NCBI GenBank assembly: GCA_019695295.1
Contig: JAIBAH010000043.1
Coordinates: 1-32,264 of the forward strand
Origin: Bacteroidia bacterium
GTDB lineage: Bacteria > Bacteroidota > Bacteroidia > J057
Length of the DNA: 32,264 nt
Reading direction: 5' to 3'
Made by a program: the position numbers and the translations under genes. Below are positions 3,247-32,264 of this stretch, piece by piece (positions within the stretch are counted from its first letter, which is position 1; each line of letters starts with the position of its first letter). Below the pieces are notes generated by a model, which worked only from the letters and a program-made list of their open reading frames with translations, made no database searches and was not told where the DNA came from.

Positions 3247-3262
3247 GGGGAATGGGGGGAAT

Positions 3263-3376
3263 TCTGTTTTGGGTGGCGGAAATCCGGTGGGTTGTGGAAA
3301 CCCAACGGGTTTGTGGGTTTATCCTGTTTTGGGTGATGGAAACCCGTTGGGTATTGGAAACCCAATGGGTTTTGGG
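3263..3376 (+). repeat. 60-bp tandem repeat, about 1.9 copies, G-rich
   Basis: Copy 1 (3263-3322) and copy 2 (3323-3376) align at exactly 60 bp, both opening with ctgttttgggtg. Each copy has nested inverted pieces such as aacccaacgggtt and aacccaatgggtt. It begins 16 bases after the stop of the preceding gene. Short open frames cross it in more than one frame, as expected when the period is a multiple of three, but none resembles a protein. Confidence 0.8.
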
Positions 3377-3720
3377 GAAAAAGTGGCGTTCAAACTGGAA
3401 AACTCCTCTTATAAATTCTGTTAAGGGGATGGCTTATGTGACTACAAGTATGGATTTAAAGTTAAATTGAGCGTTTTCATTTTTTGATTGCTTGTTTCTG
3501 AGCCGACAGACATATTGTAGTCATGATATTTCTGATCAAAAGGGAATAATAAGCACTCAGCCTCCATTTTTTCGCGTTGAATCTTCTCAGGAATTTATCT
3601 TTTTTACTACGAAATCAACATTTAAAGAAGCTCTGATGTTTTTTCATATCAAAGCAAGCAAGTTATATTTTCCGAAAAACAGGAAAAAACAGGGTATTTT
3701 TCCAAAAGTACAACCGTTTT

Positions 3721-3752
3721 TTGTCCGAATTCAAAAATTCTCTCTATCTTCG
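3721..3752 (+). promoter_or_regulatory. Bacteroidota-type promoter for the YfhO-like gene
   Basis: TTG at 3721-3723 (in a T run), a 21-nt spacer, then TATCTTCG at 3745-3752, which fits TAnnTTYG. Transcription would begin near 3758, about 33 nt before the ATG at 3791. The rest of 3430-3720 is AT-rich DNA with no gene I can support. Confidence 0.65.
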
Positions 3753-3790
3753 TAACCGATTTCACATTTTCTATTTTTAACAGTAAAATC

Positions 3791-6379
3791 ATGTCAAAAC
3801 AAAAAACAAACGTTGCTCATACTACTGCCAAATCTGCTGCTGCTACTTCTTCCCTTCCTTCCTGGGTATTACCCCTGGCTTTACCTGTATTGTTCCTGAT
3901 GCTGATGGGGTTGTATTTTGCAGGTCCGCTTACCGAAAGCAAAACGATTTATCAGCATGATATTGTACAGAACAGAGGAATGGGAAAAGAGTTGAATACA
4001 TACCGGGAACAAACCGGAAAAGAAGCACTCTGGACAGACGCAATGTTTGGAGGAATGCCCACTTATCAGATTTCATTATTGTTTCCCAACAATCTTTTTA
4101 CCAAAACAGAAAAAATCGTCACTTTTGGGATGCAAAGCCCCTACAAACAAATATGGATGTTGTTTTTGGGCTTTTTTGTACTGCTTCTGGTGTGCAGGGT
4201 AAATCCCTGGCTTAGCTTTATCGGTGCTACCGCCTTTGCATTTTCCTCCTATTTCTTTATAATACTACAGGCCGGGCACAACACCAAAGCCATGGCCGCT
4301 GCCCTGATTGCCCCGATTGTAGCGGGTACGATTCTGGCTTACCGGGGTAAAATCATGTCGGGAGTTGCACTCACCTTGCTGGCACTCGCACTTCAGATTA
4401 ATGCCAATCACATTCAGGTTACCTATTATATGGGTATTATCCTGATTGGAATCGCTGTAGCGGCACTGATAGAAGCCGTGATGAATAAACCGGAAAATAA
4501 TTTCTTTGATCATATCACTCCCAAGCGTTTCGGGCTTGCGTCTGCTGCCCTTCTTCTGGCTGCGGGCCTTGCGGTACTGCCGAACGTATCCCGTCTATGG
4601 ACTACCTACGAATATACGGAAGTTACGATGCGGGGAAAAAGTGAACTTTCCACTGCCTATAATAAAAAAGGCGGACTCGACAAAGAATATGCACTAAGAT
4701 GGAGCTACGGAATCATGGAAACGTTTAACCTTATGATTCCCAATCTTTACGGAGGCGGAACAGGTTCATCCAAATCTCAGGCTCCTGAAACTTACGACTG
4801 GCTGGTAAAAAATTACGGAGGAAAAGTCAAAGCGGATGAAGTGATTAAACAGGTGCCTGCCTACTGGGGAGATCAGCCTTTCACTTCCGGACCTACCTAT
4901 ATCGGAGCAGGAATCGTGTTTTTATTTATCTTCTCATTAGTACTGGGATTTCATAAGTTTCAGAACGGATGGGGTTACGGAAAAGTGTTTGCAGGGAGTA
5001 TGCTGGGCGTTTCCATTCTGGCGATTATGCTGGCCTGGGGACGTAATTTCTCTCCCCTTACCGATTTGTTTTTTGACCATATGCCCATGTACAATAAGTT
5101 CAGGGCAGTAGCAATGATTCTGATGATTGTACAGTTTATGATGCCTTTTATGGGAGTGCTCGCAATCAGCGAAATCCTCAAAAGACAAGACGCAAAGGAA
5201 GAAATCCTCAAGGCACTGAAAACCGCTCTGATTATTTCCGGCGGGATTATTCTGCTGGTTCTGCTTGCCGGTATTTCGACTTTTACTTTTGAAGGAGCAG
5301 AAGATGATAAAATAGGCGCATTGAAGTCTGTTTTGATTAAAGACCGTCAGGGTATGTTTTATACTGATACATTCCGGGCATTGTTTTTCATTCTCGGTTG
5401 CGGTGGAGCAATCTGGCTGGCACTTGCCGGAAAAATCAAAAATACGGTGATGTATATTATTTTGGGGGGATTGATTATTCTGGATTTATGGTCTGTAAAC
5501 AAACGTTATCTGAATGATGGTGACTTTATTCCCAAAACGCAGTATCAAGCAGAAATCTCCGCTAAATCCGCAGCAGATGAGTTTATTCTTCAGGATAAAT
5601 CCCACCACAGGGTATTAAATATCGCTACTAATACTTTCAATGACGCACTCACTTCCTATTATCATAAATCAGTAGGCGGTTATCATCCTGCCAAAATGCG
5701 CAGATATCAGGATTTGATTGAGGCCGGAATTCAGCCGGAAACCCAAAAATTAGTGGAAAAATTACAGAAAGGGGCGAGTGACTCTACGATTCGTTCTGCT
5801 TTTGGAGCTTCTCCTGTACTGAATATGCTCAATACAAAGTATGTGATTTATGAGGAAAAAAGTCGCCCGCTGGTAAATCCTGTTGCTTTGGGCAATGCAT
5901 GGTTTGTCTCAGAAATAAAGGTCGCTCAATCTGCGGATGATGAGTTAAAGACAGTAACCGGAGTCAATACTGCGAATACTGCTGTAATCGGTCCTGACTT
6001 TGCCGCTCAGGTAAGTGGATTTACCCCTGTCAGAGATTCATCTTCCCGTATTAAATTACTGGAATATCAGCCCAATGGAGTGAAATATGAATCTCAGAAC
6101 GCGCAGGAAGGACTTGCTGTTTTTTCTGAAATCTATTATGACAAAGGCTGGAAATCCTTTATAGATGGAAAAGAAGTGCCTCACTTCCGTGCGGATTGGG
6201 TGCTTCGCGGAATGAGAATCCCTGCCGGAAAACATACTATTGAGTTTAAGTTTGAGCCGGAGTCCTATTATAAAGGCGAGTCCTATGCTTTAATGGGCTC
6301 TATTCTGGTACTACTGCTTATCGCAGGTTTACTTGCGGGTGAGTACTGGATGGGTAAAAAGAAAGGGACTGCAGCCTGA
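3791..6379 (+). CDS. YfhO-family polytopic membrane protein (GT-C-like)
   Basis: An 862-residue integral membrane protein. A Ser/Ala-rich N-terminus leads into a first membrane segment at about 24-46, followed by an extracytoplasmic loop with YQHDIVQNRGMGKE (54-67) and WTDAMFGGMPTYQ (81-93), the hallmark of the Bacteroidota YfhO-like family. Many hydrophobic helices follow to about residue 590, then a soluble C-terminal part (about 600-830) and a last membrane helix near 835-855. By family it is related to GT-C glycosyltransferases that use lipid-linked sugars for envelope glycoconjugates; the donor and acceptor cannot be read here. Length is normal. It has its own upstream promoter, and a hairpin follows at 6388. 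Confidence 0.85.
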   Translation: MSKQKTNVAHTTAKSAAATSSLPSWVLPLALPVLFLMLMGLYFAGPLTESKTIYQHDIVQNRGMGKELNTYREQTGKEALWTDAMFGGMPTYQISLLFPNNLFTKTEKIVTFGMQSPYKQIWMLFLGFFVLLLVCRVNPWLSFIGATAFAFSSYFFIILQAGHNTKAMAAALIAPIVAGTILAYRGKIMSGVALTLLALALQINANHIQVTYYMGIILIGIAVAALIEAVMNKPENNFFDHITPKRFGLASAALLLAAGLAVLPNVSRLWTTYEYTEVTMRGKSELSTAYNKKGGLDKEYALRWSYGIMETFNLMIPNLYGGGTGSSKSQAPETYDWLVKNYGGKVKADEVIKQVPAYWGDQPFTSGPTYIGAGIVFLFIFSLVLGFHKFQNGWGYGKVFAGSMLGVSILAIMLAWGRNFSPLTDLFFDHMPMYNKFRAVAMILMIVQFMMPFMGVLAISEILKRQDAKEEILKALKTALIISGGIILLVLLAGISTFTFEGAEDDKIGALKSVLIKDRQGMFYTDTFRALFFILGCGGAIWLALAGKIKNTVMYIILGGLIILDLWSVNKRYLNDGDFIPKTQYQAEISAKSAADEFILQDKSHHRVLNIATNTFNDALTSYYHKSVGGYHPAKMRRYQDLIEAGIQPETQKLVEKLQKGASDSTIRSAFGASPVLNMLNTKYVIYEEKSRPLVNPVALGNAWFVSEIKVAQSADDELKTVTGVNTANTAVIGPDFAAQVSGFTPVRDSSSRIKLLEYQPNGVKYESQNAQEGLAVFSEIYYDKGWKSFIDGKEVPHFRADWVLRGMRIPAGKHTIEFKFEPESYYKGESYALMGSILVLLLIAGLLAGEYWMGKKKGTAA

Positions 6380-6567: not shown

Positions 6568-7818
6568 ATGGATTTAAGGAAACCTGTTTCTTTACTGCGG
6601 AAATACACAGGACTCATCCTGATTAATATCAGCGTTTTCCTGGTTTTATCCGAAATAGTCCTGCGTCTGTTTCCTTCAAAATATACAGAACTAAAATCGA
6701 ATTATCAATATCAGAGTGATTCCGTTACGGGTTATGTCCCCCGACCCGGCAATGATTCGGTTTACAATCTCTATTGCCTTCAGAACCGGCACGTTCGTAC
6801 GAATACTAAGGGGTTTCGGGGAAAGGAATGGGAGGGGAAAAAGGACAAGAAAATCGCTTTGCTGGGGGACTCCTTTTTACATGCGCTTACGATTCCGGAG
6901 GATATGCATACATCCACCCTGCTCTCATCCCTTACTCATGCCGAAATCTGGAACGGAGGAGTAAGCGGCTATGGTACCTATCAGGAATTGCTGCTGTGGA
7001 AAAGCAGGATGAAAGCCCTGAAGCCGGATATTACGATTGTGTTTTTTTTCGCTGAAAATGACATTCAGAACAATCATTGTACTCTCTGCCGGGGAGAAGG
7101 GCAGATTTACAATGCCTGCTGTGAAGTAAAAAACGGAGCAATACTCCCCAAAAATGACTTTCTGGTCCGGAACACTGATCTTACTCCTTTCAAAAAGTGG
7201 CTGGGGAAGCATTGCTATACCTACAAGCTGTTCAAGAATCTCAGAAACTATCAGCAATATTATCCGGCTACAAAGGATATTTTCCGGAAAGAAAGTTTTG
7301 CCTACAATGTATATCGCCCCGGATACAGTCAGATCTGGGAAGAAGGCTGGAAGGTTACGGAATGGGCTTTACGTGAGCTCAAAAAAGAATGTGACGAAGT
7401 TGGCAGCAAATTACTCATTGTCAATATTCCGGGAATGCTCCCAATTTCAAACGACTGGCATTCAGAACTCAAGTCGCAGATTGGAACGGATACCCCGCCT
7501 GAAGGCTTTGACCTCAATTATCCGGTAGAAAGAATGCGTATTATTACACAGTCGGCGGGTATTGCTTTTCTGGATTTGCTTCCTTCCTTTACAGAATACC
7601 GGGATAAACATCATCTCGAAAACCCTCTGTTCGGGTGGTGCTGCGATTCTCACTGGAACCCCCTTGGGCACCGCCTCTCGGCAGAAACGATTTACCACTA
7701 CCTCCTGAAATCCGGATGGACAGCAGGAGAACCCCTCCCTCCGATGCCTGCCCCTCAGGAAGTACTTGGGAAAAAGTTGTATGAGGAGATTTATGGCTGT
7801 AAGAGGATTCGGTTTTGA
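6568..7818 (+). CDS. Membrane-anchored SGNH/GDSL hydrolase
   Basis: A 416-residue protein with one N-terminal membrane segment (about 14-34) and an extracytoplasmic SGNH-hydrolase domain. The blocks appear in order: LLGDSF (98-103, nucleophile Ser102), a Gly-rich block II NGGVSGYGTYQ (129-139), AEND (162-165, oxyanion Asn164) and DSHWNPLGH (360-368, Asp360/His362). SGNH enzymes are esterases or acyl/acetyl transferases; related membrane-anchored forms act on acetylated surface polysaccharides, but the substrate here is unknown. It lies 188 bp after the YfhO-like gene on the same strand, so a joint envelope-glycan role is possible but not shown. The ATG at 6568 is the first in frame before the membrane helix. 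Confidence 0.82.
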   Translation: MDLRKPVSLLRKYTGLILINISVFLVLSEIVLRLFPSKYTELKSNYQYQSDSVTGYVPRPGNDSVYNLYCLQNRHVRTNTKGFRGKEWEGKKDKKIALLGDSFLHALTIPEDMHTSTLLSSLTHAEIWNGGVSGYGTYQELLLWKSRMKALKPDITIVFFFAENDIQNNHCTLCRGEGQIYNACCEVKNGAILPKNDFLVRNTDLTPFKKWLGKHCYTYKLFKNLRNYQQYYPATKDIFRKESFAYNVYRPGYSQIWEEGWKVTEWALRELKKECDEVGSKLLIVNIPGMLPISNDWHSELKSQIGTDTPPEGFDLNYPVERMRIITQSAGIAFLDLLPSFTEYRDKHHLENPLFGWCCDSHWNPLGHRLSAETIYHYLLKSGWTAGEPLPPMPAPQEVLGKKLYEEIYGCKRIRF

Positions 7819-7854
7819 TAACTGAGAAAGGGTGATTTTTTCAGGAGGGGCTAC

Positions 7855-8106
7855 TCAAAGCAGATTCATTTTCTCTGACGCAATTATGGAATCTATAAAA
7901 TCATTTATATACTGTTCTTTTAATTCCTGATATTTTTTTCTGTCCTGATTCGCTTTTTCTGCCATTTCATATTTCATTTTCTGGTATTTTATTCTTGCCC
8001 ATTCTGGGGTTGTATCAAAATGACTCCTCACCCGGTATTGCTTCGTTAAGTTCTGTTTTAGACACTGCAAAAATACCGTTTTTTCTCCATTAGGATTATG
8101 CGGCAA
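7855..8106 (-). CDS. Small charged helical protein, uncertain gene
   Basis: An 83-codon frame, 31 bp downstream of and on the same strand as the metallopeptidase-like gene. The second half is rich in Lys, Glu and Gln with a coiled-coil look (for example MKYEMAEKANQDRKKYQELK) and reads like real protein. The only possible full-length start is TTG at 8106, directly after an in-frame stop, and TTG starts are rare in this group. The first ATG is about 43 codons in. It may be a short real gene, or the tail of a gene that lost its front. No family recognised. Confidence 0.4.
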   Translation of the reverse strand: MPHNPNGEKTVFLQCLKQNLTKQYRVRSHFDTTPEWARIKYQKMKYEMAEKANQDRKKYQELKEQYINDFIDSIIASEKMNLL

Positions 8107-21604: not shown

Positions 21605-21759
21605 GGCATTAAAAAAATTTCGGGGGATGGATTGCGGGATTTTTTTATCTATGCCGGAATCGGGTAAATTGTATTGGATTTTCCGTTTTTTATTCCTCAT
21701 TTTTTTCTAACCGGATTGAAATGAGTGAAAAACATACCCGATTGTTTGTTCTTCACTAC

Positions 21760-21985
21760 CGATTTCCTGAACCATTGACCCGATTTCCTGAACAATCGAT
21801 GCGATTTCCTGAACAATCGACCCGATTTCCTGAGCAATCGACGCGATTTCTTGAACAATCGACCCGATTTCCTGAACAATCGACGCGATTTCCTGAACCA
21901 TCGAGGCGATTTCTTGAGTCATCGAGGCGATTTCTTGAGTCATCGACCCGATTTCTTGAACAATTGATGCGATTTCCTGAGGTTT
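21760..21985. repeat. 21-bp minisatellite, 11 copies
   Basis: CGATTTC(C/T)TGA starts at 21760, 21781, 21802 and on to 21970, always 21 bp apart. Most units read cgatttcctgaacaatcgac, with small dyad symmetry (CGATT...AATCG). Since 21 is a multiple of three, several frames stay open. The plus strand gives repeats of RFPEQST and the minus strand gives heptads such as IVQEIAS. Neither has a convincing start, promoter or family, so I treat the array as non-coding. The remaining gap 21985-22230 shows nothing I can support. Confidence 0.85.
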
Positions 21986-22232
21986 GCAGGCTTCTTTTTG
22001 ACTCTCTCCCGCAATGGCGCAAAGGGGGTATTTCGTTTTTATCTTTATCTCAGCGGATTGTATTTCCGGTTTATGGATTACAAACCTGCGAAAATGGGTT
22101 GCTTATCCGGGGTATTGAGGTTATGATATTCTTCTTTTAATTTTCAGCAGATGAGACTTTAGGGAATCCTTTTCAAAGCAGAGGGGAAATAATGTTCTGA
22201 TTATTAGTACTATCAATATTTTTTCATTTTTT

Positions 22233-22264
22233 TTGGGAGGATTACAAAATTCTATGTAGCTTTG
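22233..22264 (+). promoter_or_regulatory. Promoter reading into the cassette region
   Basis: TTG (22233-22235, end of a T run), 21 nt, TAGCTTTG (22257-22264). The start site would be near 22270. No gene lies directly after it; the first downstream gene is the methyltransferase at 22474. It sits 85 bp before the first putative core site (22349), the position expected of an array-head promoter. Confidence 0.55.
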
Positions 22265-22276
22265 CAATGTATTTTA

Positions 22277-22299
22277 GTAATTATGTACTGCATAATTAC
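22277..22299. promoter_or_regulatory. Perfect 9-bp inverted repeat downstream of the promoter
   Basis: GTAATTATG (22277-22285), 5 nt, CATAATTAC (22291-22299). It lies just after the predicted start site of the promoter at 22233, so it could be a repressor site for a dimeric protein or a short leader hairpin. AT-rich and without a T tract, so not a terminator. Confidence 0.55.
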
Positions 22300-22410
22300 C
22301 TGGGATATACGAAAGTGCTGTATTTGCAGGGGTTTAGTAGGTGTTGTAGTTAGTAGAAGTGGCAAAGTGACAGTGCAACCACATTGAAACAGGCTAAAAC
22401 TTAATCACTT

Positions 22411-22444
22411 TTGATAACTTAAACCGACATTATTAGTAACTTTG
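22411..22444 (+). promoter_or_regulatory. Probable promoter of the restriction-modification genes
   Basis: TTG (22411-22413), a 23-nt spacer (slightly long), then TAACTTTG (22437-22444). The start site would be near 22450, about 24 nt before the methyltransferase start. Confidence 0.5.
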
Positions 22445-22473
22445 ACCAGAACAAACAATAAATTGTATACTAC

Positions 22474-23757
22474 TTGAAAACTAATCATAAAATAATAAAC
22501 GGAGACAGCAGACAAATGACCGAACTACCCGATAATTCGGTACATTTGGCTATTACTTCACCACCGTATTGGCAGTTAAAGGACTACGGAACTGACAATC
22601 AAATCGGTTTCCACGACAGTTACGAAAACTACATCAATAACCTGAATTTGGTTTGGAAAGAATGCTACCGCACTCTTCACAATGGTTGCAGGTTGTGTGT
22701 GAATATTGGCGACCAATTTGCCCGTGCTGTTTATTACGGACGTTACAAAGTCATCCCCATTCGTGAAGAGATTATCAAGTTCTGTGAGAATATCGGCTTT
22801 GACTATATGGGAGCTATTATTTGGCAAAAGGTGACAACTTCCAACACGACTGGAGGTGGCGTTCAAATGGGTTCTTATCCCTATCCAAGAAACGGAATTT
22901 TGAAACTTGACTATGAATTTATTCTTGTTTTTAAAAAATTGGGAGACGCACCAAAACCGACAAAGGAACAGAAAGAACTTTCAAAAATGACTGCCGAAGA
23001 ATGGAACACAAACTTTGCAGGACATTGGAATTTCGCAGGAGCGAGACAAAGTGGACATATTGCAATGTTTCCGGAAGAATTACCGAAACGCCTGATCAAA
23101 ATGTTTTCGTTTGTTGGCGAAACAATCCTTGACCCATTTGCAGGAAGTGGAACAACAGCATTAGCAGCAAAAAACTCTGACAGGAATTCTGTTGGTTTTG
23201 AAATTAATCCTGAATTTATTCCTTTCATCAAAGAGAAATTAGACGTTCATCAAATGGATTTGAATGGAACAACTTATGAGTTTGTAATACAACAACCAAT
23301 TGTAAACGACTTTGAAAAAGAAATTCAAAAACTGCCTTACATTTTCAAAGACCCTCATACACTTGATAAGAAAATTGATGTAAAAAAATTACAGTTCGGC
23401 TCTAAAATCGACAAGGACAGTTCAACACAACGAGAAGAACTTTATACGGTTAAGGAAGTTATCAGCCCTGAGTTAATTCGTTTGAGCAACGATTTAATTG
23501 TAAAACTAATTGGCATAAAAGAAGACCCAATTATAAACGGACAAGCTACAGCGTTTTTAAAAGAAAAAACAAAAGGTAAAAGAGTTTTCTTGAAATATGA
23601 CGAATTGAAACACGACAGTGAAAATAATTTGCTTTGCTATCTCTACCTTGAAAACAAAACATTTATCAATGCTCATTTAATCAAAAATGGTTTAGTGAAA
23701 GTGGACAGTGATATTGATTTCAAATACAAAGACAAATTTTTAAATCTACAAAAATAA
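22474..23757 (+). CDS. Site-specific DNA methyltransferase, likely N4-cytosine, with SNase-like tail
   Basis: A 427-residue modification enzyme of a type II R-M system. Catalytic motif IV is TSPPYW (28-33), the form usual in N4-cytosine enzymes; the SAM-binding motif DPFAGSGTT (220-228) follows it, so the order is that of the beta class. Residues about 324-427 (VKLIGIKED, then FLKEKTKGKRVFLKYD, NNLLCYLYLEN, INAHLIKNGLVKV) follow the staphylococcal-nuclease (OB-fold) pattern, but the two catalytic Arg positions appear to be Lys and Asn, so it is probably a DNA-binding module. The start is TTG at 22474: an in-frame stop lies 12 bases upstream (22459-22461) and the first ATG would remove the NGDS region. 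The next gene begins 2 bp after its stop. Confidence 0.88.
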   Translation: MKTNHKIINGDSRQMTELPDNSVHLAITSPPYWQLKDYGTDNQIGFHDSYENYINNLNLVWKECYRTLHNGCRLCVNIGDQFARAVYYGRYKVIPIREEIIKFCENIGFDYMGAIIWQKVTTSNTTGGGVQMGSYPYPRNGILKLDYEFILVFKKLGDAPKPTKEQKELSKMTAEEWNTNFAGHWNFAGARQSGHIAMFPEELPKRLIKMFSFVGETILDPFAGSGTTALAAKNSDRNSVGFEINPEFIPFIKEKLDVHQMDLNGTTYEFVIQQPIVNDFEKEIQKLPYIFKDPHTLDKKIDVKKLQFGSKIDKDSSTQREELYTVKEVISPELIRLSNDLIVKLIGIKEDPIINGQATAFLKEKTKGKRVFLKYDELKHDSENNLLCYLYLENKTFINAHLIKNGLVKVDSDIDFKYKDKFLNLQK

Positions 23758-23759
23758 AT

Positions 23760-24125
23760 ATGCCAATAAATTTTACTCAACAACAGCGTCAAGCATTATT
23801 AGCTGCCTTAGGTAATGGACGACCTAATGCAATTGGTGCAAGAAGGTTAGCCCAAATTCTTGGCTACCCTACTGGAGGCAATCAAGTTCGATTAAGAACG
23901 CTGATTAAAGAATGTATTGAAAATGATAATGATTTAATTGGAGCTACAACTGGACGACCTGCGGGTTTCTTTATAATTACAAATACAAATGAGTTGGAAG
24001 CTTATTTAGATAGTTTAGAAAATAGAACACGGAGTGATAATGATAGAAGAACAGCACTCATCATTAGCTGGAATAATCAACCTAACATTCCTAACACAAT
24101 TCAACAAATCCTAACAATACAATAA
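23760..24125 (+). CDS. Small winged-helix-like protein in the R-M operon
   Basis: A 121-residue protein between the methyltransferase and the nuclease, 2 bp after the first and overlapping the second by one base (TAATG). Residues about 20-85 look like a winged helix-turn-helix: IGARRLAQILGYPTGG, VRLRTLIKECIENDNDLIGA, then RPAGFFIITNTNELEAYLDSL, resembling phage and plasmid HTH proteins with the same 'G-FFI-EL-YL-SL' wing. It could be a controller protein timing nuclease expression, or a specificity or assembly subunit. It is not a standard C-protein of the Xre type. No exact family recognised. Confidence 0.75.
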   Translation: MPINFTQQQRQALLAALGNGRPNAIGARRLAQILGYPTGGNQVRLRTLIKECIENDNDLIGATTGRPAGFFIITNTNELEAYLDSLENRTRSDNDRRTALIISWNNQPNIPNTIQQILTIQ

Positions 24126-24826
24126 TGGCAAAAGATTGGATAACAGTAACAGACGGTGAAGGCTTAAAGTTTAAGCACGAAACACTTTTAAATTATGGCT
24201 TAAATCGTTGGGGCTTAAACAAAGCTTATAGCGTTGGTGCTTTATCTGAACTAATTAGAACTTGTGCACCAAATGAGTTCAAAGAGTGGGAAGAATTTTA
24301 CTTTACAAAAGGTAAGCAGAAAAAGAAAAACGGAATAAATATTACGAGAGAATACATAACAGGACTTGGACAAACACTCTATATAAAACTATCTGAAGTC
24401 GTTCAAAACGAATTAGCATCAATTACTGAAGAAGAATGTATTGAATATGCTTATAACCTCGTTCTTCGCAGGACTTATGATGGTTATAGAACTGAAATAG
24501 AAACAATCTATGGTCAATTAGAAGGCGCTGTAGAAAGAAAAATAGAACCAGCCCCAGACAATTGGGACAGGACTTATGGTGTGGACTTTTTCATTAAAAT
24601 CGGTGAAAAATTTATTGGCATTCAAATAAAACCTATTGCCTCTGGACAAGCATTGAACCAATATCAATGGATAGAAATGCATAAGGTTAGTCACGCCAAG
24701 TTTGAAAAAGAGTTTGGAGGAAAAGTGTTTTTTGTTTACTCGACTAAAAGCACGGCAGGCAAAAAGAAGATTTACAACATTGAAGTCATTGAGCAAATTC
24801 GGGCTGAAATTATAAGGTTAAACTGA
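24125..24826 (+). CDS. Type II restriction endonuclease, MjaI-like
   Basis: A 233-residue nuclease partner of the upstream methyltransferase. The N-terminus carries NRWGLNKAYSVGALSELIR (27-45) and WEEFYF, which resemble the MjaI restriction-endonuclease family (RE_MjaI) as I recall it. A PD-(D/E)xK-type catalytic set is visible: Asp154 in YGVDFFI and Gln167-x-Lys169 in GIQIKP, 13 residues apart. The MjaI prototype cuts CTAG and pairs with an N4-cytosine methyltransferase, which agrees with TSPPYW upstream, but the target here is inference. It starts at the ATG overlapping the previous stop, so all three genes are translated as one tight operon. The operon ends at a putative attC (24845). Confidence 0.7.
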   Translation: MAKDWITVTDGEGLKFKHETLLNYGLNRWGLNKAYSVGALSELIRTCAPNEFKEWEEFYFTKGKQKKKNGINITREYITGLGQTLYIKLSEVVQNELASITEEECIEYAYNLVLRRTYDGYRTEIETIYGQLEGAVERKIEPAPDNWDRTYGVDFFIKIGEKFIGIQIKPIASGQALNQYQWIEMHKVSHAKFEKEFGGKVFFVYSTKSTAGKKKIYNIEVIEQIRAEIIRLN

Positions 24827-24844
24827 CACCGAAAAAGCCACATC

Positions 24845-25133
24845 CGCTAACAGCACCTACAAGAAATTGGCGGTTAAATGGTTAAATGAAGCTTTGCGCT
24901 TCGTATCAAGTTCAGTACAGGCAGACAGTTTAGTGCTTCGAAATCGCCCACTAGCCGCAAACCGTTCTCAAACAGTCTCGCTCAAGTCCTGATATTTTTC
25001 TCACAGGTTCGAAAAAAGTACGCAATCCCCGACCGGTTTTAGAACAGCAGCTTTCCGTGATTTTTGTCGTTTTGGGGAAAATATTTATATTTGTGGCGAG
25101 GAAAACGGAACGCAAAGGTGCGGGACATTAACT
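24845..25133 (+). repeat. Separator element A: attC-like, promoter-bearing
   Basis: 289 bp between the R-M operon and the SEC-C gene. Left end CGCTAAC (24845-24851) is followed by GCACC (24853-24857), which pairs with GGTGC (25117-25121) near the right end ATTAACT (25127-25133). Inner stems are GGCG/CGCC (24869-24872 with 24945-24948) and GAAGC/GCTTC (24888-24892 with 24898-24902). The left half matches element D and the right half matches elements B and D, ending like element C. A promoter lies at 25064-25093. Confidence 0.65.
25064..25093 (+). promoter_or_regulatory. Promoter inside element A, for the SEC-C gene
   Basis: TTG (25064-25066, within TTTTTG), 19 nt, TATATTTG (25086-25093): ideal consensus and spacing. 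The start site would be near 25099, upstream of the core site at 25127, so the transcript would cross the cassette junction into the gene at 25167. Confidence 0.75.
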
Positions 25134-25166
25134 TCAATTATAATAAACATATAATTAATAAAATAG

Positions 25167-26621
25167 ATGACAACGGAGGAATTTTGGAAAATATATACAA
25201 GCGAAGAAGATATTCTCAATATTTTTGACATTACTTATGATTTTTTTTCGAACGATTTACCCTCTGAATTTGTTGAAAATTATGATGTTGGTGAAGTTAT
25301 TTTAGAAACATTGGGACATAATGAAAGTGCCAAAGAATTTGAAAAAGTTATAAAATTTACAGAACTTTTACAAAATAAACATCCTGAATTGTATAGCGAA
25401 TATTCTCATTATTTTGATGGTTTTTTAGTCGATTTTTATTGTTTTCATAAAAACAATAAAAAGGTGGAAAGTGCATTTTCAAATTTTGTCAAAAACCCAG
25501 AAGAAGATTTTGATATATTATTAATCGCTTTTAAGAAATTGCTTTTTTACCAATATTTAGACACCTTAGATACCACAATAGTAAATATTTATGACACCGT
25601 AAAAAATTCAAGTAAATTAATTGGCGGTGCGGGATATGATTTGGCAGTGAGTAAGTTTTATATTAATCTCGAAAAAATTTATAATAAAACTGACAAAATT
25701 GAGCATTTTAATCGAATTGAATTTGCTGAATCTTTAATTCCTTATGATTTTAACCTTAAAGATAAAGCACAAACAGCACTTGAAAATGGTCTTTTGGGAA
25801 GCAATCTGCCAAAAGAAACGATAGTAGATAATTTCATTCAAAATAGGAGTGATTTTGTTTTGACTTTACAAGGTTTATTTCTTAAAGAAATGAAAAATAA
25901 AAATTTTCATTTTGCCCTGAGTGGCAGATTGTGGGATAATATGTTAGGTTTTTGGGAAGAGCTAAACAAAAAGAAAAAGCAAAAACCGGATGAATATTTT
26001 TCAATACAATCAGATGAATTTGAACAATATTTAGATAGATTATCAGGTGGTTTTTTTGTTGATAACAAATCAGAAATGATTGCTGTTCTTTGGGGTAGCG
26101 TATATATTTACGATTTCTTACAATCAATAGGATTAATCAATCAATCTACCTATAATGGTTTTAAAGAAACTTCAAAAATTTTAAAAGGGAAAGTAATTGA
26201 ACAATTTACGGGTGATTTGTGGAATTCTAATTTTGTTCATTATTGGGCAAAACCTGATAGTATTTCTGAAATTGAGTTTAGAGAAGAAGAAAAAATATTT
26301 CTAAAAAGCATATTCCTTAAACCTCATCAATTTTCAAAATTAAGAAGTGAAATATCGGAAGAATTAAAAAATATCGGTGAGCTTTCTGAATACATTATTC
26401 AAGATGGAAAAACTGACATTAGTAAATCAAATTTATTATTTGATGATTTATTAGGGTCTATTCAAGATACTAAAAAAATTAAGGAAAAAAATAATGACCA
26501 ATATATTGACGATGATTTTGCTAAATTGGAGCCAATAAAGATTGAAAAAAAAGTTGGAAGAAATGAACCTTGCCCATGTGGAAGTGGGAAAAAATATAAG
26601 AAATGTTGTGAAAATAAATGA
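25167..26621 (+). CDS. SEC-C motif protein of unknown function
   Basis: A 484-residue, acidic, mostly helical protein with no signal peptide. The first ~455 residues match no family I recognise. The C-terminus ends in a SEC-C zinc-binding motif, [19 protein letters not shown] (463-481), with the four metal-binding Cys of the type found at the end of SecA and many accessory-region proteins. SEC-C often acts as an accessory metal or protein-binding tag, so it does not fix the function. It is very AT-rich. It occupies a single-gene cassette between element A and the site at 26629. Confidence 0.75.
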
Positions 26622-26628
26622 AAAGTGC

Positions 26629-26725
26629 AGTTATCATTGTGTAGCTGGCCATTTGCCCTTGAATCGGTTTTGCGGTGCGAAACCGTTGTAAAAGGGAAAA
26701 CGGCGGTTACACATGTACGTTAGGC
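26629..26725 (+). other. attC-like site 2
   Basis: A 97-bp structured gap. Left end AGTTATC (26629-26635) is close to the complement of the cassette's own start (ATTAACT at 25127). The right end is GTTAGGC (26719-26725), an exact GTTRRRY core. Between them are nested stems: gtgta/tacac outside (26639-26643 with 26708-26712), ccctt/aaggg (26656-26660 with 26692-26696) and cggttt/aaaccg (26665-26670 with 26680-26685), capped by a 9-nt loop. Size and shape match classical integron attC sites. It is unrelated in sequence to element A. Confidence 0.65.
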
Positions 26726-26750
26726 ATAATGCTAAAAAACAAATAATAAA

Positions 26751-27479
26751 ATGTGGAGTAAGTTTTTAAAAATATTTAAGTCCAAAAATTCAGAATCTGA
26801 CGACTTTATAAAACGAATTCGCTCATTAGTAATTGGTGAAGGTATGCTGAAAGAAGGAAATATAAGGCTAATGAATTTTGCTGTCAAAAATATGCCTGCA
26901 GAAGGAAGTGTTGTAGAAATCGGTTCCTATGGTGGCTTATCAACAAACCTGATAATTTATCTGATGCGTAAACATAAAAAGAGTAATTCGTTTTTCACCT
27001 GCGATGCCTGGGTATATGAAGGATTTAATGATCATTTACAAGAAATATCGGATGTCCATATCGATGGTAGAACGGATATATTAAGAACAGATTATTCTGT
27101 GTATTTGAAAAATGCTTTTATCAATTCAACAACCTTTCTCAGCCCACAAAATTTGCCTTATTCATTCCATATGTTTTCTGATTTATTCTTTGATAACTGG
27201 CATAATTGCAGAAGCGAATCAGACATTTTTGGTCGCAAAGTTGAGTTGGGCGGAAATATATGTTTTGCTTACATTGATGGTGGACATTCGTATGAAGTAG
27301 CCTGGAAAGACTTCAATAATATAGCTATACACATAGTAAAAGGAGGCTTTATCTTATTGGATGATTCTGCTGACGGAGAAAATTTTGGGAGTGCACATAT
27401 GATGACCAATATTAAAAAAGACAAAAGGTTTAAAGTAATTGCAAAAAGCCCTACTTATTTGATTCAGAAAGTGGAATAA
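26751..27479 (+). CDS. Class I SAM-dependent methyltransferase
   Basis: A 242-residue Rossmann-type methyltransferase. SAM-binding motif I is VVEIGSYGGLST (54-65). Later motifs are FAYIDGGHSYEVAWKDFNN and GGFILLDDS, the pattern of the Methyltransf_24 group, whose known members modify small molecules, sugars or rhamnosyl products. The first 20 residues are basic and look unstructured. No partner genes are nearby, so the substrate is open. The gene lies alone between exactly complementary core sites (GTTAGGC at 26719 and GCCTAAC at 27504). Confidence 0.85.
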   Translation: MWSKFLKIFKSKNSESDDFIKRIRSLVIGEGMLKEGNIRLMNFAVKNMPAEGSVVEIGSYGGLSTNLIIYLMRKHKKSNSFFTCDAWVYEGFNDHLQEISDVHIDGRTDILRTDYSVYLKNAFINSTTFLSPQNLPYSFHMFSDLFFDNWHNCRSESDIFGRKVELGGNICFAYIDGGHSYEVAWKDFNNIAIHIVKGGFILLDDSADGENFGSAHMMTNIKKDKRFKVIAKSPTYLIQKVE

Positions 27480-27503
27480 CTTTTTTTTTACAAAAAGCAC
27501 TAT

Positions 27504-27795
27504 GCCTAACAGTGTTTTCACGCAATGGCTGGTTCAGCTTTCTTTATCGGAAACTACTCAAAAGGAAATTGTATATATTTAACCCTTACTATAAAGTTGT
27601 CATCACTGCTTGAAGCCGCCAAACCGTTCTCAAACTGTCTCGCTCAAGCCCAGATATTTTTCTTACAGGCTCAAAAAAGCACGCAGTCCCCTGACCGATT
27701 TTAGAACAGCCGCTTTACGTGATTTTTGTCGTTTTGGGAAATATATTTATCTTTGTGGCGACAAATACGGGAGGCAAAGTTGCAAACCGTTGTGC
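27504..27795 (+). repeat. Separator element B: attC-like, promoter-bearing
   Basis: 292 bp. Left end GCCTAAC (27504-27510), right end GTTGTGC (27789-27795). Its left third is its own; from about 27618 (aaaccgttctcaaac) it matches elements A and D closely, including ctgatattt-like and cacaggctc-like blocks and the promoter module, then gcaaagttgc before the right core. An open frame of about 70 codons across it has no protein-like features. Confidence 0.65.
27726..27755 (+). promoter_or_regulatory. Promoter inside element B, for the SRPBCC gene
   Basis: TTG (27726-27728, in TTTTTG), 19 nt, TATCTTTG (27748-27755). The start site would be near 27761, about 100 nt before the ATG at 27861. Confidence 0.72.
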
Positions 27796-27860
27796 GTCAT
27801 TCATTGCAGATCGACGCCATAAACAGACAAAATACTAAAACGCTAAATTTGGAATAAAAA

Positions 27861-28277
27861 ATGAACGAAAAAATTAAGGTAACTGCGACAATCAATGCAG
27901 ACACCCAAACAGTATGGGACTATTACACAGACCCAAAACACATTGTAAACTGGAATTTTGCCGACCCAAGCTGGCATTGTCCGAGTGCGACAAATAATAT
28001 GATTACAGGAGGCACTTACAAAGCAAGAATGGAAGCCAAAGACGGAAGTTTTGGTTTTGATTTTGAAGCCATTTATACAAAAATCAACGTTGGTAAATCA
28101 TTCTCTTATGAATTTGGTGGTCGAACTGCAAATGTAACAATTGCGAAACAGGATACTCAAACTGAAATAACTATAGAATTTGACCCTGAAAGCCAAAACC
28201 CTGTTGAAATGCAGAAAGCAGGTTGGCAATCAATTTTAAACAACTTTAAAAATTATGTTGAAAATGAGAAGCAATAA
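27861..28277 (+). CDS. SRPBCC (AHSA1/START-like) protein
   Basis: A 138-residue protein of the SRPBCC helix-grip fold: IKVTATINADTQTVWDYYTD at the start, WNFADPSWHCP, a central beta-sheet (TYKARMEAKDGSFGFDFEAIY) and the closing helix GWQSILNNFKNYVE that covers the ligand pocket. Members bind hydrophobic ligands or act as co-chaperone-like AHSA1 proteins; the ligand is unknown. Its last codons overlap the start of a broken DoxX-like gene, and a VOC gene follows. I have seen this grouping of families in Bacteroidota, which suggests a small stress- or detoxification-related cassette. Confidence 0.87.
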   Translation: MNEKIKVTATINADTQTVWDYYTDPKHIVNWNFADPSWHCPSATNNMITGGTYKARMEAKDGSFGFDFEAIYTKINVGKSFSYEFGGRTANVTIAKQDTQTEITIEFDPESQNPVEMQKAGWQSILNNFKNYVENEKQ

Positions 28278-28565
28278 AATAATCTTTGGGACAGCCTATA
28301 TCATTTTAGCATTGAGAGAAGCCGTACAGCCGATTAGTTGTTGAATTTTTGCACCAGAGTATATGACAGCAGGAAAAAACCGCTTTTCTATCCTGACTAT
28401 TTTGGTTACACTCTTGTAATTGCAAAAGTGCATGGAATAATTGCAATAGTTTACCCAATGCTGATGGAACCAAACGAAATGAGAGATTATGGTTTTATTC
28501 AGCAGAGAACAACAGACGATTTTGACGGACATACCCGGAGAAAATTTTTATATGGACATAACTGA
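28264..28565 (+). pseudogene. Broken DoxX-like membrane gene
   Basis: The ATG at 28264 overlaps the SRPBCC stop and opens a DoxX-like N-terminus: NKIIFGTAYIILALREAVQP, then a stop at 28342-28344. In another frame from about 28338 the protein resumes with YPDYFGYTLVIAKVHGIIAI, the second-helix region of DoxX proteins, and runs to 28563. The halves are in different frames, and the expected third and fourth helices are not recognisable. I read this as a frameshifted, decayed DoxX gene. It fills most of the gap between the SRPBCC and VOC genes. Confidence 0.6.
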
Positions 28566-28610
28566 TTTTCAACTGAATAATCATTTTTTAATCAATTAAA
28601 TTTTAATAAA

Positions 28611-29057
28611 ATGGCACAAATTAATCCTTACATTCATTTTAATGGAAATGCAGAAGAAGCATTTAACTTTTACAAATCCGTTTTTGGTGGAGAATTCGCA
28701 ATGATAGTACGTTTCAAAGATATGGCTTCGGAAGAGTTTCCGGTTTCCGAAAACGAAGCAGAGAAAATAATGCACATTGCTTTACCAATTGGCAAACACA
28801 GCATTTTAATGGGTAGTGACACTCCGGAAAGTATGGGTAAGCACAACGAAAACGAGAATAGAAGCAAAATCTCAATAGGTGCAGAAAGTAAAGAAGAAGC
28901 AGACCTTTTGTTTAATGGACTTTCGGCAGGCGGACACATCGAATTTCCAATAGCAGACAGTCCCTGGGGTTCATATTTTGGGATGTTTAGAGACAAATAC
29001 GGGTTGGAATGGATGATAGACTTTGACCCGGGACAGCAAGAGAGAACAGCCGGATAA
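28611..29057 (+). CDS. VOC-family protein (PhnB/glyoxalase-like)
   Basis: A 148-residue protein of the PhnB/YjdN-type VOC family: IHFNGNAEEAFNFYKSVFGG near the start, IMHIALPIGKHSILMGSD in the middle, and SPWGSYFGMFRDKYGLEWMI at the end. VOC proteins are metal-dependent lyases, dioxygenases or drug-binding proteins; the PhnB group has no firmly known reaction. Length and motifs are complete. It lies 45 bp after the DoxX remnant and ends at a putative attC left end (29069). There is no core site between it and the SRPBCC gene, so the three probably form one cassette. Confidence 0.88.
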   Translation: MAQINPYIHFNGNAEEAFNFYKSVFGGEFAMIVRFKDMASEEFPVSENEAEKIMHIALPIGKHSILMGSDTPESMGKHNENENRSKISIGAESKEEADLLFNGLSAGGHIEFPIADSPWGSYFGMFRDKYGLEWMIDFDPGQQERTAG

Positions 29058-29068
29058 AAACAACAAAC

Positions 29069-29192
29069 GCATACCAGCATTTTGGCAAAATGGCGGGGTT
29101 AGTGCTAAATTGAACGGCAATTCTTATATTTAACTTCTGTACAAAACGAAACTTTTGTGCTTCAATCATCACCAATCCTCAAACCGTTGGGG
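29069..29192 (+). other. attC-like site 4
   Basis: A 124-bp gap after the VOC gene. The left end (GCATACC) is a poor core but 5 of 7 match the complement of this cassette's start (GTTGTGC at 27789). The right end is GTTGGGG (29186-29192), followed by ATTCCAGAGAC, which also follows the core at the end of element D. An 8-bp stem with one G-T pair lies at 29139-29146 with 29153-29160. The block ggttagtgct (29097-29106) recalls the ttagtgcttcg block of elements A and D. Confidence 0.45.
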
Positions 29193-29245
29193 GTGATTCC
29201 AGAGACCCAGGACAAAATCTGTAGAAATTAATTTATAAAAACTGA

Positions 29246-29983
29246 ATGAAGAAAATAGCACTGATAATAGCTTCCCTTTTTTCGCTGACAAATACCTTTG
29301 GACAGTCGAATGAACCTAAACTTATAATCTCACACTTAACCGGTGACTTTTATATCTATACAACATACAATACCTACGAAGGAAACAAAATACCTGCTAA
29401 CGGGATGTATCTTGTTACCAATAATGGCGTCGCTCTGTTTGACACACCCTGGGATACGACACAATTTCAACTGTTGCTTGACAGTATTCAATTGAAACAC
29501 AACAAAGAGGTAACAATCTGCATAGCTACTCATTGGCATGGTGACAGAACTGATGGGCTTGAATACTACAAGCAAAAGGGAATTAAGACATACACAACTA
29601 AATTAACAGATGATTTATGTAAAAAGAATAACAAAAAAAGAGCTGAATATCTGATTGAAAAAGATACCATTTTCAATACAGGACAATATTCATTTGAAAC
29701 TTATTATCCAGGACAGGGACATACAGAGGACAATATCGTTTTGTGGTTTAGCAAAGAGAAAATTCTTTATGGAGGCTGTTTAATAAAAGGTGCAGAAGCG
29801 GCAAACCTGGGGTATTTGGGAGACGGGAATATTTTTGAATACGAAACAACTCTTAAAAATGTTCAGAAAAGATATCCTGACCCCAAATATATAATTGTGT
29901 CCCATCATAATTGGAATAATATAAATTCCTTGAAACATTCAATTAAGATGGCAAAAAAACTAAAAAGGAAAAATCGAAAATAA
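29246..29983 (+). CDS. Subclass B1 metallo-beta-lactamase-like enzyme
   Basis: A 245-residue periplasmic MBL-fold enzyme with signal peptide (MKKIALIIASLFSLTNTFGQ). The full B1 zinc set is present: His96, His98 and Asp100 in THWHGDRTDGL; His159 in GQGHTEDN; Cys178 in GGCLIKG; and His221 (or His220) in SHHNW. Lys181 and Asn188 are at the usual substrate-contact positions. The run from GQGHTEDNIVLWF through GGCLIK to NLGY resembles the IND/BlaB enzymes of Flavobacteriia. B1 enzymes hydrolyse most beta-lactams including carbapenems; activity of this protein is inferred only. The SHHNW block replaces the usual PGHD-x-W. It sits alone in a putative cassette. Confidence 0.85.
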   Translation: MKKIALIIASLFSLTNTFGQSNEPKLIISHLTGDFYIYTTYNTYEGNKIPANGMYLVTNNGVALFDTPWDTTQFQLLLDSIQLKHNKEVTICIATHWHGDRTDGLEYYKQKGIKTYTTKLTDDLCKKNNKKRAEYLIEKDTIFNTGQYSFETYYPGQGHTEDNIVLWFSKEKILYGGCLIKGAEAANLGYLGDGNIFEYETTLKNVQKRYPDPKYIIVSHHNWNNINSLKHSIKMAKKLKRKNRK

Positions 29984-29990
29984 AAACTAT

Positions 29991-30121
29991 CATTAACATA
30001 ATATTGCCAAAAGCGGGGCAGAACGGCTTCGATTGGACATTGGTACAAGGTTCAACTTTCGTTCTTCGATTGGGCATTAGTACTAAAAATTCCCGCCTTA
30101 GGCAATACCCAATCCGTAGGC
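29991..30121 (+). other. attC-like site 5 with long imperfect palindrome
   Basis: 131 bp. Left end CATTAAC (29991-29997); right end CGTAGGC (GTAGGC at 30116-30121), which looks like CGTTAGGC with one T lost. Outer arms 30002-30017 and 30092-30107 pair at 14 of 16 positions (tattgcc...gcggg with cccgcc...ggcaata). Inside is a 20-nt direct repeat, 18 of 20 identical (cttcgattgg... at 30027 and 30064). Confidence 0.5.
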
Positions 30122-30131
30122 AGCAAACATA

Positions 30132-30704
30132 ATGAGACACATTACTAAAATCGACATTGACGAAAGTGTGTCACGACACAAACTAATTTTTCAAGAAGAG
30201 TGGCCTGAAAAATTTGACCGTTTTCTTGTTTACCTGTTTTTTAGCGGAATGATTATTTCCCCTGCGCTGACAATATTTGAGGTGGACTTTAATAATCCCA
30301 ATGAAAAATTCATTTCAATGACACTTATACCGCTTTGTATTCTATTTGGACTTTATGTTATTTATCGTAAAGCTACAGAAAAACGCCTATACACATTGAC
30401 AACTCCATTTGACAGACAGAAAAACAGGCAAATATTATTAACCTATGCTGACAAACAACAGTTAGAAATTTACCGCAAATCTAACGACTGCTTAATTTTC
30501 AACGAATCATCTGGCAACAGTAATCCAAGCTATAAAAAGTTAATGGTGTTTATCCTGAAAGAGAATCAAGTATTATTCACAATACTTAAAGACCAGGACA
30601 AACTCAATTTGCCGACTTTGACATCACATTTATTTCTAAAATATGACCTGAAAAAATTATTTAATCACGTATCAACAAATGACAGCGGACTTGCGGACAG
30701 ATAA
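30132..30704 (+). CDS. Two-helix membrane protein of unknown function
   Basis: A 190-residue protein with a short cytoplasmic N-terminus, two hydrophobic helices (FLVYLFFSGMIISPALTIF, about 31-50, and FISMTLIPLCILFGLYVIY, about 60-78) and a soluble C-terminal part of about 110 residues, probably cytoplasmic by the positive-inside rule (KATEKRLYTL follows helix 2). The hairpin-plus-soluble-domain shape recalls PH-like (YcxB-type) membrane proteins, but no motif proves it. It lies alone in its putative cassette, between sites at 30116 and 30714. Confidence 0.6.
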   Translation: MRHITKIDIDESVSRHKLIFQEEWPEKFDRFLVYLFFSGMIISPALTIFEVDFNNPNEKFISMTLIPLCILFGLYVIYRKATEKRLYTLTTPFDRQKNRQILLTYADKQQLEIYRKSNDCLIFNESSGNSNPSYKKLMVFILKENQVLFTILKDQDKLNLPTLTSHLFLKYDLKKLFNHVSTNDSGLADR

Positions 30705-30713
30705 AATGCCAGC

Positions 30714-30807
30714 GGGTAACAGCCACTTTTTGTGATTTTTGCCGTTTTGGGAAAATATTTATATTTGTAGCGTGAAAAACAGGACGCAAAGTTGCGGGAC
30801 GTTATAG
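30714..30807 (+). repeat. Separator element C: short form, promoter-bearing
   Basis: 94 bp. Left end GGGTAAC (30714-30720), then agccac, then directly the last ~80 bp shared with elements A, B and D: gtgatttttg, the promoter, ggacgcaaagttgcggga and right end GTTATAG (30801-30807). About 200 bp of the central part of A, B and D is missing, so the minimal conserved unit is the left core, the promoter module and the right core. Confidence 0.65.
30739..30767 (+). promoter_or_regulatory. Promoter inside element C, for the APH-family gene
   Basis: TTG (30739-30741, in TTTTTG), 18 nt, TATATTTG (30760-30767). The start site would be near 30773, about 68 nt before the ATG at 30841. Confidence 0.7.
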
Positions 30808-30840
30808 TCACAATTTTAAATCTGACAATAAAGCAGGCCA

Positions 30841-31848
30841 ATGAGACATTTTCCAGTAACAAATTCCACCCTTTCAGCGACACATATAGGAGTGTTTTTA
30901 CAGGAGAAATATTCTTTGAGTAAAGACACCCAATGCAAATTAATAAAAGCCGGGATTAATGACACATATTTAGTTACCGACAACTCAGACAAATTTGTAT
31001 TTAGAGTGTATAGTTTAGATTGGCGTTCAAAGACGGAGATTGACGAAGAAATTAAATTGCTGAATCAACTAAAAGAAAATTCCATTTCCATTTCCTATCC
31101 GGTATCAGACAAAGAAAGCAACTACATACAAACACTAAGTGCTCCGGAAGGAGACAGATTTGCTGTTCTTTTTTCATTTGCATCCGGTGAAAAACAAGAT
31201 ATCATTTCAGAAGTAAGTCATTTCCAAATTGGACAACTCTTAGCCCGACTTCATAAGATAACGAATAATCAAAAATTAAATCGTACAGACTATACACCCG
31301 AAGTAATTCTTATTGACTCACTAAAAAAAGTGTCAGCCTTTTTGAAAAGTAATACAGCAGAAATGGACTTTATGAAATCGGCTCAAAAATACCTGTTAAA
31401 AGAGTTTGAAAATGCAAACAATACCGAAATTCGAAAGGGAGTTGTTCATTTTGACATTTGGTTTGACAATCTAAACATAACAAAAGACAATAAAGTAACT
31501 GTTTTTGACTTTGATTTCTGTGGAAATGGTTGGCTTTGTTTAGACATTGCTTACTATATTATACAGCTTCACAATATTGAGCAGTATGAAACAAAAGGTT
31601 ATACACCTAAAATTGATAGTTTTATGAAAGGGTACGAATCTGTGACGCCAATAAGCGAAGAAGAAAAACGACTTATTCCAATGCTTGGTGTAAGCATATA
31701 CTTTTTCTACTTAGGTGTTTATTGTCAGCGTTACGACAATTGGTCGAACTCCTTTTTAAGTGAAAATTATTTAAAAAGATTTATCAACGGACTAATTAAA
31801 AGATACTATGACATTTATGAACTTGGGGACAATAAAACCTGTATCTAA
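30841..31848 (+). CDS. APH/choline-kinase-family phosphotransferase
   Basis: A 335-residue cytoplasmic kinase of the APH fold. GINDTYLVT (38-46) and FVFRVYS (52-58) form the nucleotide-binding region with Arg55 in the usual Lys/Arg position. The catalytic loop VVHFDIWFDNLNI (201-213) gives His203, Asp205 and Asn210; VFDFDFCGNGWLCLDIAYYI (221-240) gives metal-binding Asp223/Asp225. The family includes aminoglycoside kinases, homoserine kinase II (ThrB-like) and SrkA; HFDIW is closer to the metabolic members than to known resistance enzymes, so I do not call drug resistance. The stop codon lies inside the next attC left end (ATCTAAC). Confidence 0.85.
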   Translation: MRHFPVTNSTLSATHIGVFLQEKYSLSKDTQCKLIKAGINDTYLVTDNSDKFVFRVYSLDWRSKTEIDEEIKLLNQLKENSISISYPVSDKESNYIQTLSAPEGDRFAVLFSFASGEKQDIISEVSHFQIGQLLARLHKITNNQKLNRTDYTPEVILIDSLKKVSAFLKSNTAEMDFMKSAQKYLLKEFENANNTEIRKGVVHFDIWFDNLNITKDNKVTVFDFDFCGNGWLCLDIAYYIIQLHNIEQYETKGYTPKIDSFMKGYESVTPISEEEKRLIPMLGVSIYFFYLGVYCQRYDNWSNSFLSENYLKRFINGLIKRYYDIYELGDNKTCI

Positions 31849-32137
31849 CAGCACCTACAATAAATGGGCGGTTCAGTGGGTAAATGAAACGCTATGTTTC
31901 GTATTAAGTCCAGTGCTGGCAAACAGGTTAGTGCTTCGAAATCCGCTTCTTCGCCAAGTGCCATACCGTTCTTAAACAGCCCCCAAGCCCTGATATTTTC
32001 CTCACAGGCTCAAAAAAAGCACTTACTCCCCAGACCGGTTTGAGAGCAGCAGCTTTTCGTGATTTTTGTCGTTTTTGAAAAAAAAACATTTATATTTGTG
32101 GCGACAAAAATGGACGCAAAGCTGCCGGGCGTTAGTG
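31843..32137 (+). repeat. Separator element D: attC-like, promoter-bearing
   Basis: 295 bp. Left end ATCTAAC (31843-31849, exact RYYYAAC, overlapping the stop codon of the kinase gene), followed by agcacctacaa as in element A. It has a stem GAAAC/GTTTC (31886-31890 with 31896-31900) where A has GAAGC/GCTTC. The right end is GTTAGTG (32131-32137). Similar to A along almost its whole length. Confidence 0.65.
32066..32098 (+). promoter_or_regulatory. Promoter inside element D, reading out of the window
   Basis: TTG (32066-32068, in TTTTTG), 22 nt lengthened by an A run, TATATTTG (32091-32098). The start site would be near 32104; the gene it serves lies beyond the window end. Confidence 0.6.
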
Positions 32138-32264
32138 GCAATTCCAGAGACTCTAAAAGGGTTACGTTTCTCAGCTAACGGGAAAAAGTGTAAATTTGGG
32201 CTGACTTCCATCGAGACCGATTTTTAAAGTGGTACGTAAAAGTCCCCCGGCAATTCTGGTTGAG
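32138..32264 (+). other. Start of a further cassette, no gene seen
   Basis: After the core at 32131 the sequence begins with the ATTCCAGAGAC block (32141-32151) that also follows the core at 29186. No start codon with a convincing frame occurs before the end. The array probably continues to the right. Confidence 0.4.

Follow-up and report, generated by a model that had tools for sequence, protein, structure and literature searches.

The class I SAM methyltransferase gene at 26751-27479 reads as a single-gene cassette in a chain of about ten, and we consider it very probable (roughly 0.88, judged from sequence) that positions 26720-27626 are a one-gene mobile cassette in the array of a Bacteroidota integron-like system. 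The window, by which we mean the whole stretch of 32,264 nucleotides analysed, is an entire contig (C85) of a 4.9-Mb, 223-contig assembly. Secretion-tail domains characteristic of Bacteroidota point to that phylum as the source. We describe the system as integron-like rather than as a canonical integron because its putative enzyme does not have the trait by which integron integrases are defined; the system would nonetheless operate like an integron, through excision and integration of cassettes. It seems to be a widespread Bacteroidota version that uses a recombinase of a type other than the integron-defining one.

The methyltransferase cassette and its array

The original prediction placed exactly complementary core sites on either side of the methyltransferase gene, and both were located: GTTAGGC at 26719-26725 and GCCTAAC at 27504-27510. 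The complementarity is longer than had been claimed. The start arm, GTTAGGCATAATGCT (26719-26733), matches GTTAGGCATAGTGCT, the reverse complement of the end arm AGCACTATGCCTAAC (27496-27510), at 14 of 15 positions, and the lone mismatch is position 11. We scanned the whole 32-kb window for GTT...AAC pairs with 15-nt arms at a spacing of 300-3000 nt, leaving out position 11; 26719-27510 was the sole pair that matched at 14/14, and no 14/14 pair was found when the same scan was run on 100 Markov-shuffled windows. Between the arms lies the gene for a 242-aa protein of the Methyltransf_24 family (PF13578, 46 bits against a cut-off of 26), encoded on the plus strand, as are all the other features that we describe in the window. 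The end arm opens an attC-like site at 27496-27626, whose boundaries are taken from the cores and whose diverged inner part is not recognised by our attC profile. The stretch up to 27795 had been taken as one attC, and this we had to revise: the attC-like site stops at the GTT that occupies 27626-27628, and positions 27627-27789 form a gene-less cassette of their own, with promoter-like sequence, and do not belong to the methyltransferase attC.

It had also been proposed that the same gene might be found elsewhere with the same boundaries and other neighbours, and that a conserved block reaching past the boundaries would speak against the cassette. Such a gene is present at locus L060, the one close homologue found (73% nucleotide identity), where the homology begins exactly at 26719 and is lost at 27486-27510, the sequences on both sides are different, and the conserved block does not extend past the boundaries. 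There is no recognised attC in L060, so that this locus supports the boundaries and not the system. A different cassette, of 1,435 nt, is 96.7% identical between genomes of two families; its homology begins within the preceding site and ends at a GTT core, beyond which the sequences differ.

The array as a whole comprises about ten cassettes at 22349-32264, with ten main genes (22474-31848) that belong, by their ORFs and Pfam matches, to unrelated families: a DNA methylase with an MjaI-type endonuclease, SEC-C, methyltransferase, SRPBCC, VOC, metallo-beta-lactamase fold, an unknown protein and an APH-type kinase. Several of these genes are separated by repeats of up to 290 nt. Cassette 1 (22350-24964) encodes the DNA methylase (N6_N4_Mtase), a small ORF and the MjaI-type restriction endonuclease, and has an attC-like site at 24837-24964 that the profile matches at 24864-24952 (E 4e-11 with the iterated model, 0.018 with the model excluding the window). 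Cassette 3 (25128-26719) encodes the SEC-C protein and ends in a short hairpin attC-like site (26621-26719; bottom-strand folding z -2.3). For both of these the fits between the ends that had been proposed are present but weaker than that of the methyltransferase cassette: the 7/9 match of the restriction-modification cassette becomes 12/15 when the whole arm is counted (22349-22363 against 24837-24851), and the near-fit of the SEC-C cassette amounts to 5/7, or 10/15 (25127-25141 against 26621-26635).

Downstream of the methyltransferase, the cassette at 27790-29186 carries an AHSA1/SRPBCC protein, a degraded fragment and a VOC protein, with an attC-like site at about 29060-29186 (E 0.005 with the profile lacking the window). 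The sequence between its SRPBCC and VOC genes (28278-28600) resembles a broken membrane-protein gene, a remnant that suggests a decayed or fused cassette. The cassette at 29187-30116 encodes the metallo-beta-lactamase-fold protein and has an attC-like site at about 29983-30116; the profile without the window matches it at 30004-30104 (E 1.4e-9) and matches three further window sites weakly. There follow a 190-aa protein of unknown family together with a truncated promoter cassette (30117-30801, the latter at 30721-30801), and an APH-family kinase (30802-31968) with an attC-like site at 31835-31968 (E 3e-11 iterated, 0.024 without the window). A further cassette begins after 32131 and is cut by the contig end. 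The folding z-scores of the window's own attC sites are mostly not significant, and several of the sites fold no better than shuffles. The array has the look of an old one that has decayed in part; its best-preserved member is the methyltransferase cassette, in which the outer arms pair as described, and the other, decayed cassettes fit less well.

We considered the repeats of about 290 nt as single attC sites and rejected this on the evidence of the sister genome G003. Its contig C57 has two tandem copies of the repeat's second half, with the junction exactly at GTT, and on C7 the counterpart of that half lies directly at an attI-like block; therefore the repeat is composite, with a gene-less cassette about 165 nt long following an attC-like site. 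Within the window these gene-less cassettes are found at 24965-25127 (GTT/ATT cores at its ends, and a promoter-like TTTG-N19-TATATTTG at 25063-25093), at 27627-27789 (86-90% similar to the first, with TTTG-N19-TATCTTTG at 27725-27755) and at 31969-32131, a third full copy similar to the first. The pattern TTTG-N18-20-TAnnTTTG occurs three times in the window, always inside gene-less cassettes, where 0.9 occurrences are expected by chance. The promoter pattern at 30738 lies inside the truncated cassette. In its exact form, the only form searched, the pattern is absent from the window's attI-like block, where it was sought as a sign of a platform promoter (Pc) that would read into the first cassette. 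The gene-less cassettes of the window's genome (G000) and G003 lie between gene cassettes and carry a predicted Bacteroidota-type promoter that would probably drive the next gene. Genome G017 (L192, L193) contains several almost identical copies of a gene-less cassette roughly 280 nt long, and each copy begins at a GTT core. Elsewhere in the window's genome (L035, contig C165), a two-gene block of a DUF1801-like gene and an SRPBCC gene is duplicated (2961-3922 and 7216-8084), and both copies sit downstream of promoter-cassette remnants.

Pairing of cassette ends in related arrays

Of 395 genomes from the class to which the window belongs, 54 matched a strict attC hairpin pattern, and the reversed control matched none. 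These genomes are draft assemblies, and binning error could explain some of the sharing, though the matches are spread over 35 of 197 genera. The attC profile was built from the strict-pattern matches with the window left out. The hairpin is also carried by 18 IMG/VR contigs filed as viral (L165-L182), one of which, L171, additionally has a recombinase of the family described below. Rfam returned nothing relevant, and the phage and plasmid collections gave one weak plasmid match and no phage match.

The idea that the start of a cassette is complementary to the left core of its own attC held in 58 array loci, both against swapped pairs and against the alternative in which the repeat is the unit. 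For cassettes shorter than 1.5 kb (n=48), own start and own end match at 8.02 of 11 positions, compared with 3.98 for swapped pairs (Z 17.8; 0 of 10,000). At a spacing of 1.5-3 kb the pairs reach Z 7.9, and at 3 kb or more there is no signal, as expected if intervening sites were missed. Between the two outer ends of a single repeat, complementarity is at chance level (Z -0.1, n=136). The inner arms behave in the opposite manner: scored as the best of three offsets, because the arms are shifted by one base, they match at 3.51 of 4 positions within a repeat, against 2.45 when swapped (Z 16.2) and 2.45 between neighbours. Along the outer arm, position 11 matches in 0 of 48 cassettes, whereas positions 12-15 match at frequencies of 0.60-0.79; the mismatch is a fixed A/G, and the methyltransferase cassette of the window has the same one. 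At all 35 sites compared, joining a cassette's own start to its own end produced a more stable fold than the hybrid present in the array (mean predicted energy -33.2 against -24.0 kcal/mol), and attC orientation is uniform within each locus. Outer arms that pair cassette-wise combined with inner arms that pair within the repeat are, as far as sequence can tell, the signature of integron attC sites.

These measurements bear on two explanations in which the gene is not a cassette. Were the repeats themselves the mobile units, REP- or MITE-like elements inserted between immobile resident genes, one could account for the long similar repeats between genes and for the near-identical hairpins in dozens of families. 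The arm test refutes this model unless some cassette-specific bias exists, since complementarity joins the ends of one cassette and not those of one repeat, and entire cassettes are common to different families with different neighbours; we regard it as very unlikely. A transposon that carries one cargo gene between 15-bp terminal inverted repeats would likewise present a gene flanked by an inverted repeat, but the arm sequence varies between cassettes and matches only within a cassette, and no transposase is encoded between the arms, leaving this explanation with next to no credibility.

Recombinases and putative attI sites

The array is preceded by an attI-like block (22186-22349), the conserved part of which stops at the GTT core at 22349-22351. 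The block is a 79% copy of one located upstream of a tyrosine recombinase gene elsewhere in the same genome (G000:C140:692-1750), and these are the only two copies there. G003, which is of the same genus, has the block next to a recombinase of 74% identity, and on C7 has it with no recombinase alongside. All of the copies stop agreeing at the same TAGTT, after which each continues into a different sequence. In both genomes the recombinase is divergent from the block, and the short contig that carries it has no intact array after the gene; the case for its role in these genomes therefore depends on the attI copies. A 21-nt tandem repeat occupies 21717-22031, just before the block in the window, and similar tandem repeats lie beside the C140 recombinase (L009, about 1790-1890) and on C42 (L056, 635-743).

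Homologues of the C140 recombinase were found at the starts of arrays. At 11 loci, the core predicted from the arm of the first attC falls just past the recombinase stop codon and matches at 13-14 of 14 positions, where the next best candidate has 8-10. A scan that used neither attC nor enzyme models placed cassette-start cores 17-156 nt past the stop codon at 17 loci, mostly at 85-112 nt, and gave very few pairs on the opposite strand. We regard the cores after the stop codon as putative attI sites. Arrays upstream of the recombinase homologues were looked for and none was found, the arrays lying mostly downstream on the same strand; a divergent arrangement of recombinase and array is seen at L204, L130, the viral contig L171, G000 and G003. 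Many members of the family have no detectable array nearby. At L095, L096, L104, L105 and L108 the contig ends no more than 300 nt after the recombinase gene, and many contig ends at this position would be expected if assemblies break at arrays. In the putative attI of L249, L251, L253, L204 and L099, a short inverted repeat (for example ACGCAACTAGTTGCGT) lies about 10 nt before the core and is perhaps a candidate binding site for the recombinase.

In an alignment of 17 recombinases the catalytic residues are intact throughout, and the IntI-specific insertion is missing from every one. The additional domain around patch III is regarded as defining for integron integrases and as necessary for their activity (PMC9668308). 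The integrase profile TIGR02249 scores protein P0001 and six array-adjacent recombinases at 188-223 bits, below its cut-off of 265, and its alignment to them is split in two, with the first part ending near position 180 and, in P0001, the second starting at 240. No protein in the window's genome scores above this cut-off.

We propose that the last 130 nt or so of a cassette act as an attC-like site, in which the inner arms would pair within the repeat and the outer 15-nt arm would pair with the 15 nt that begin the same cassette, a contact open only to a circular or folded cassette. The enzyme would be a tyrosine recombinase lacking the IntI-specific domain, here that of G000:C140:692-1750; it would cut at G/TT, excise cassettes as circles and, through recombination of single strands, insert them either at the attI next to the recombinase gene or at another attC site. 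For the window, the predicted circle would join 27626 to 26720, or 27789 to 26720 if both cassettes leave together.

Cassettes might instead have been shuffled by ordinary homologous recombination between similar repeats, with the arms as a relic. In favour of this, the repeats are long, resemble one another and often mark contig breaks, and a segment moved in this way would bring both of its arms along; yet neither the origin of complementary 15-nt arms with a fixed mismatch nor insertion beside a recombinase gene, at an attI unlike attC, would be explained, and we think this improbable. Alternatively, a canonical IntI encoded elsewhere could move the cassettes, making the patch-less recombinase next to them a bystander. 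The attC-like geometry is similar to that of canonical sites, and the reported need for the IntI-specific domain favours such an enzyme. Set against this are the lack of a protein above the TIGR02249 cut-off in the window's genome, the presence of a single patch-less family where the array begins in 17 loci, its stop codon separated from the core by a near-constant distance, and the finding that the array-adjacent members tested all fall below the cut-off and lack the segment. We hold a canonical IntI to be unlikely as well, and favour the integron-like system served by the neighbouring recombinase.

Relation to known systems

Like the class 1 integrons and the Vibrio superintegrons, this system has cassette arrays running in one direction, a G/TT core, attC sites whose outer arms pair cassette-wise and whose inner arms pair within the site, with unpaired bases in the fold, and an attI, here consisting of predicted cores, adjoining a tyrosine recombinase. 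It differs in that the recombinase lacks the IntI-specific domain and falls below TIGR02249, that the attI lies mostly 85-112 nt downstream of the recombinase with the array on the same strand, and that the outer arm is as long as 15 nt, position 11 being a fixed mismatch. We had thought the 15-nt arm to be new in itself, a view weakened by a control in which eight class 1 cassettes match to about position 12 (0.88-0.62 at positions 8-12). In this small sample the fixed position-11 mismatch and the pairing at 12-15 were not seen, and of the features of the arm these alone differ from class 1.

Gene-less promoter cassettes are known from Vibrio superintegrons (PMC11014356) and oral integrons (PMC6557892). 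Those described here similarly lie between gene cassettes and carry promoter sequence, predicted in our case, but that sequence fits the Bacteroidota pattern TTTG-N19-TAnnTTTG. With XerA/XerC-type enzymes (NCBIfam NF040815, "site-specific tyrosine recombinase/integron integrase") the recombinases share intact catalytic residues, and P0001, at 224 bits, lies above the cut-off of 220; unlike those enzymes they are tied to cassette arrays, have a C-terminal SPLD-like motif and in many cases bear an N-terminal extension (DUF5710 in P0001). We found no prior account of this system in the open-access literature, to which our search was confined. A plasmid of Microscilla (Bacteroidota) reportedly has long repeats between its genes, which we mention as a lead only.

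Integron searches depend on integrase profiles and attC models from other phyla. A published survey describes complete integrons in Bacteroidetes as only exceptional (PMC9024848), and published taxon-specific attC models exclude Bacteroidota (PMC8352920). The arm rule detects cassettes without any attC or enzyme model. We put at about even odds the joint reading that Bacteroidota have a large integron class of their own, that its recombinase lineage never had, or has lost, the domain held essential for recombination of folded attC sites, and that the fixed mismatch of the outer arm stands in for that domain in recognising strand and site. Should the recombinases prove active, a gene-exchange system of considerable size has so far been missed, and whether the extra IntI domain is truly essential could be tested directly.
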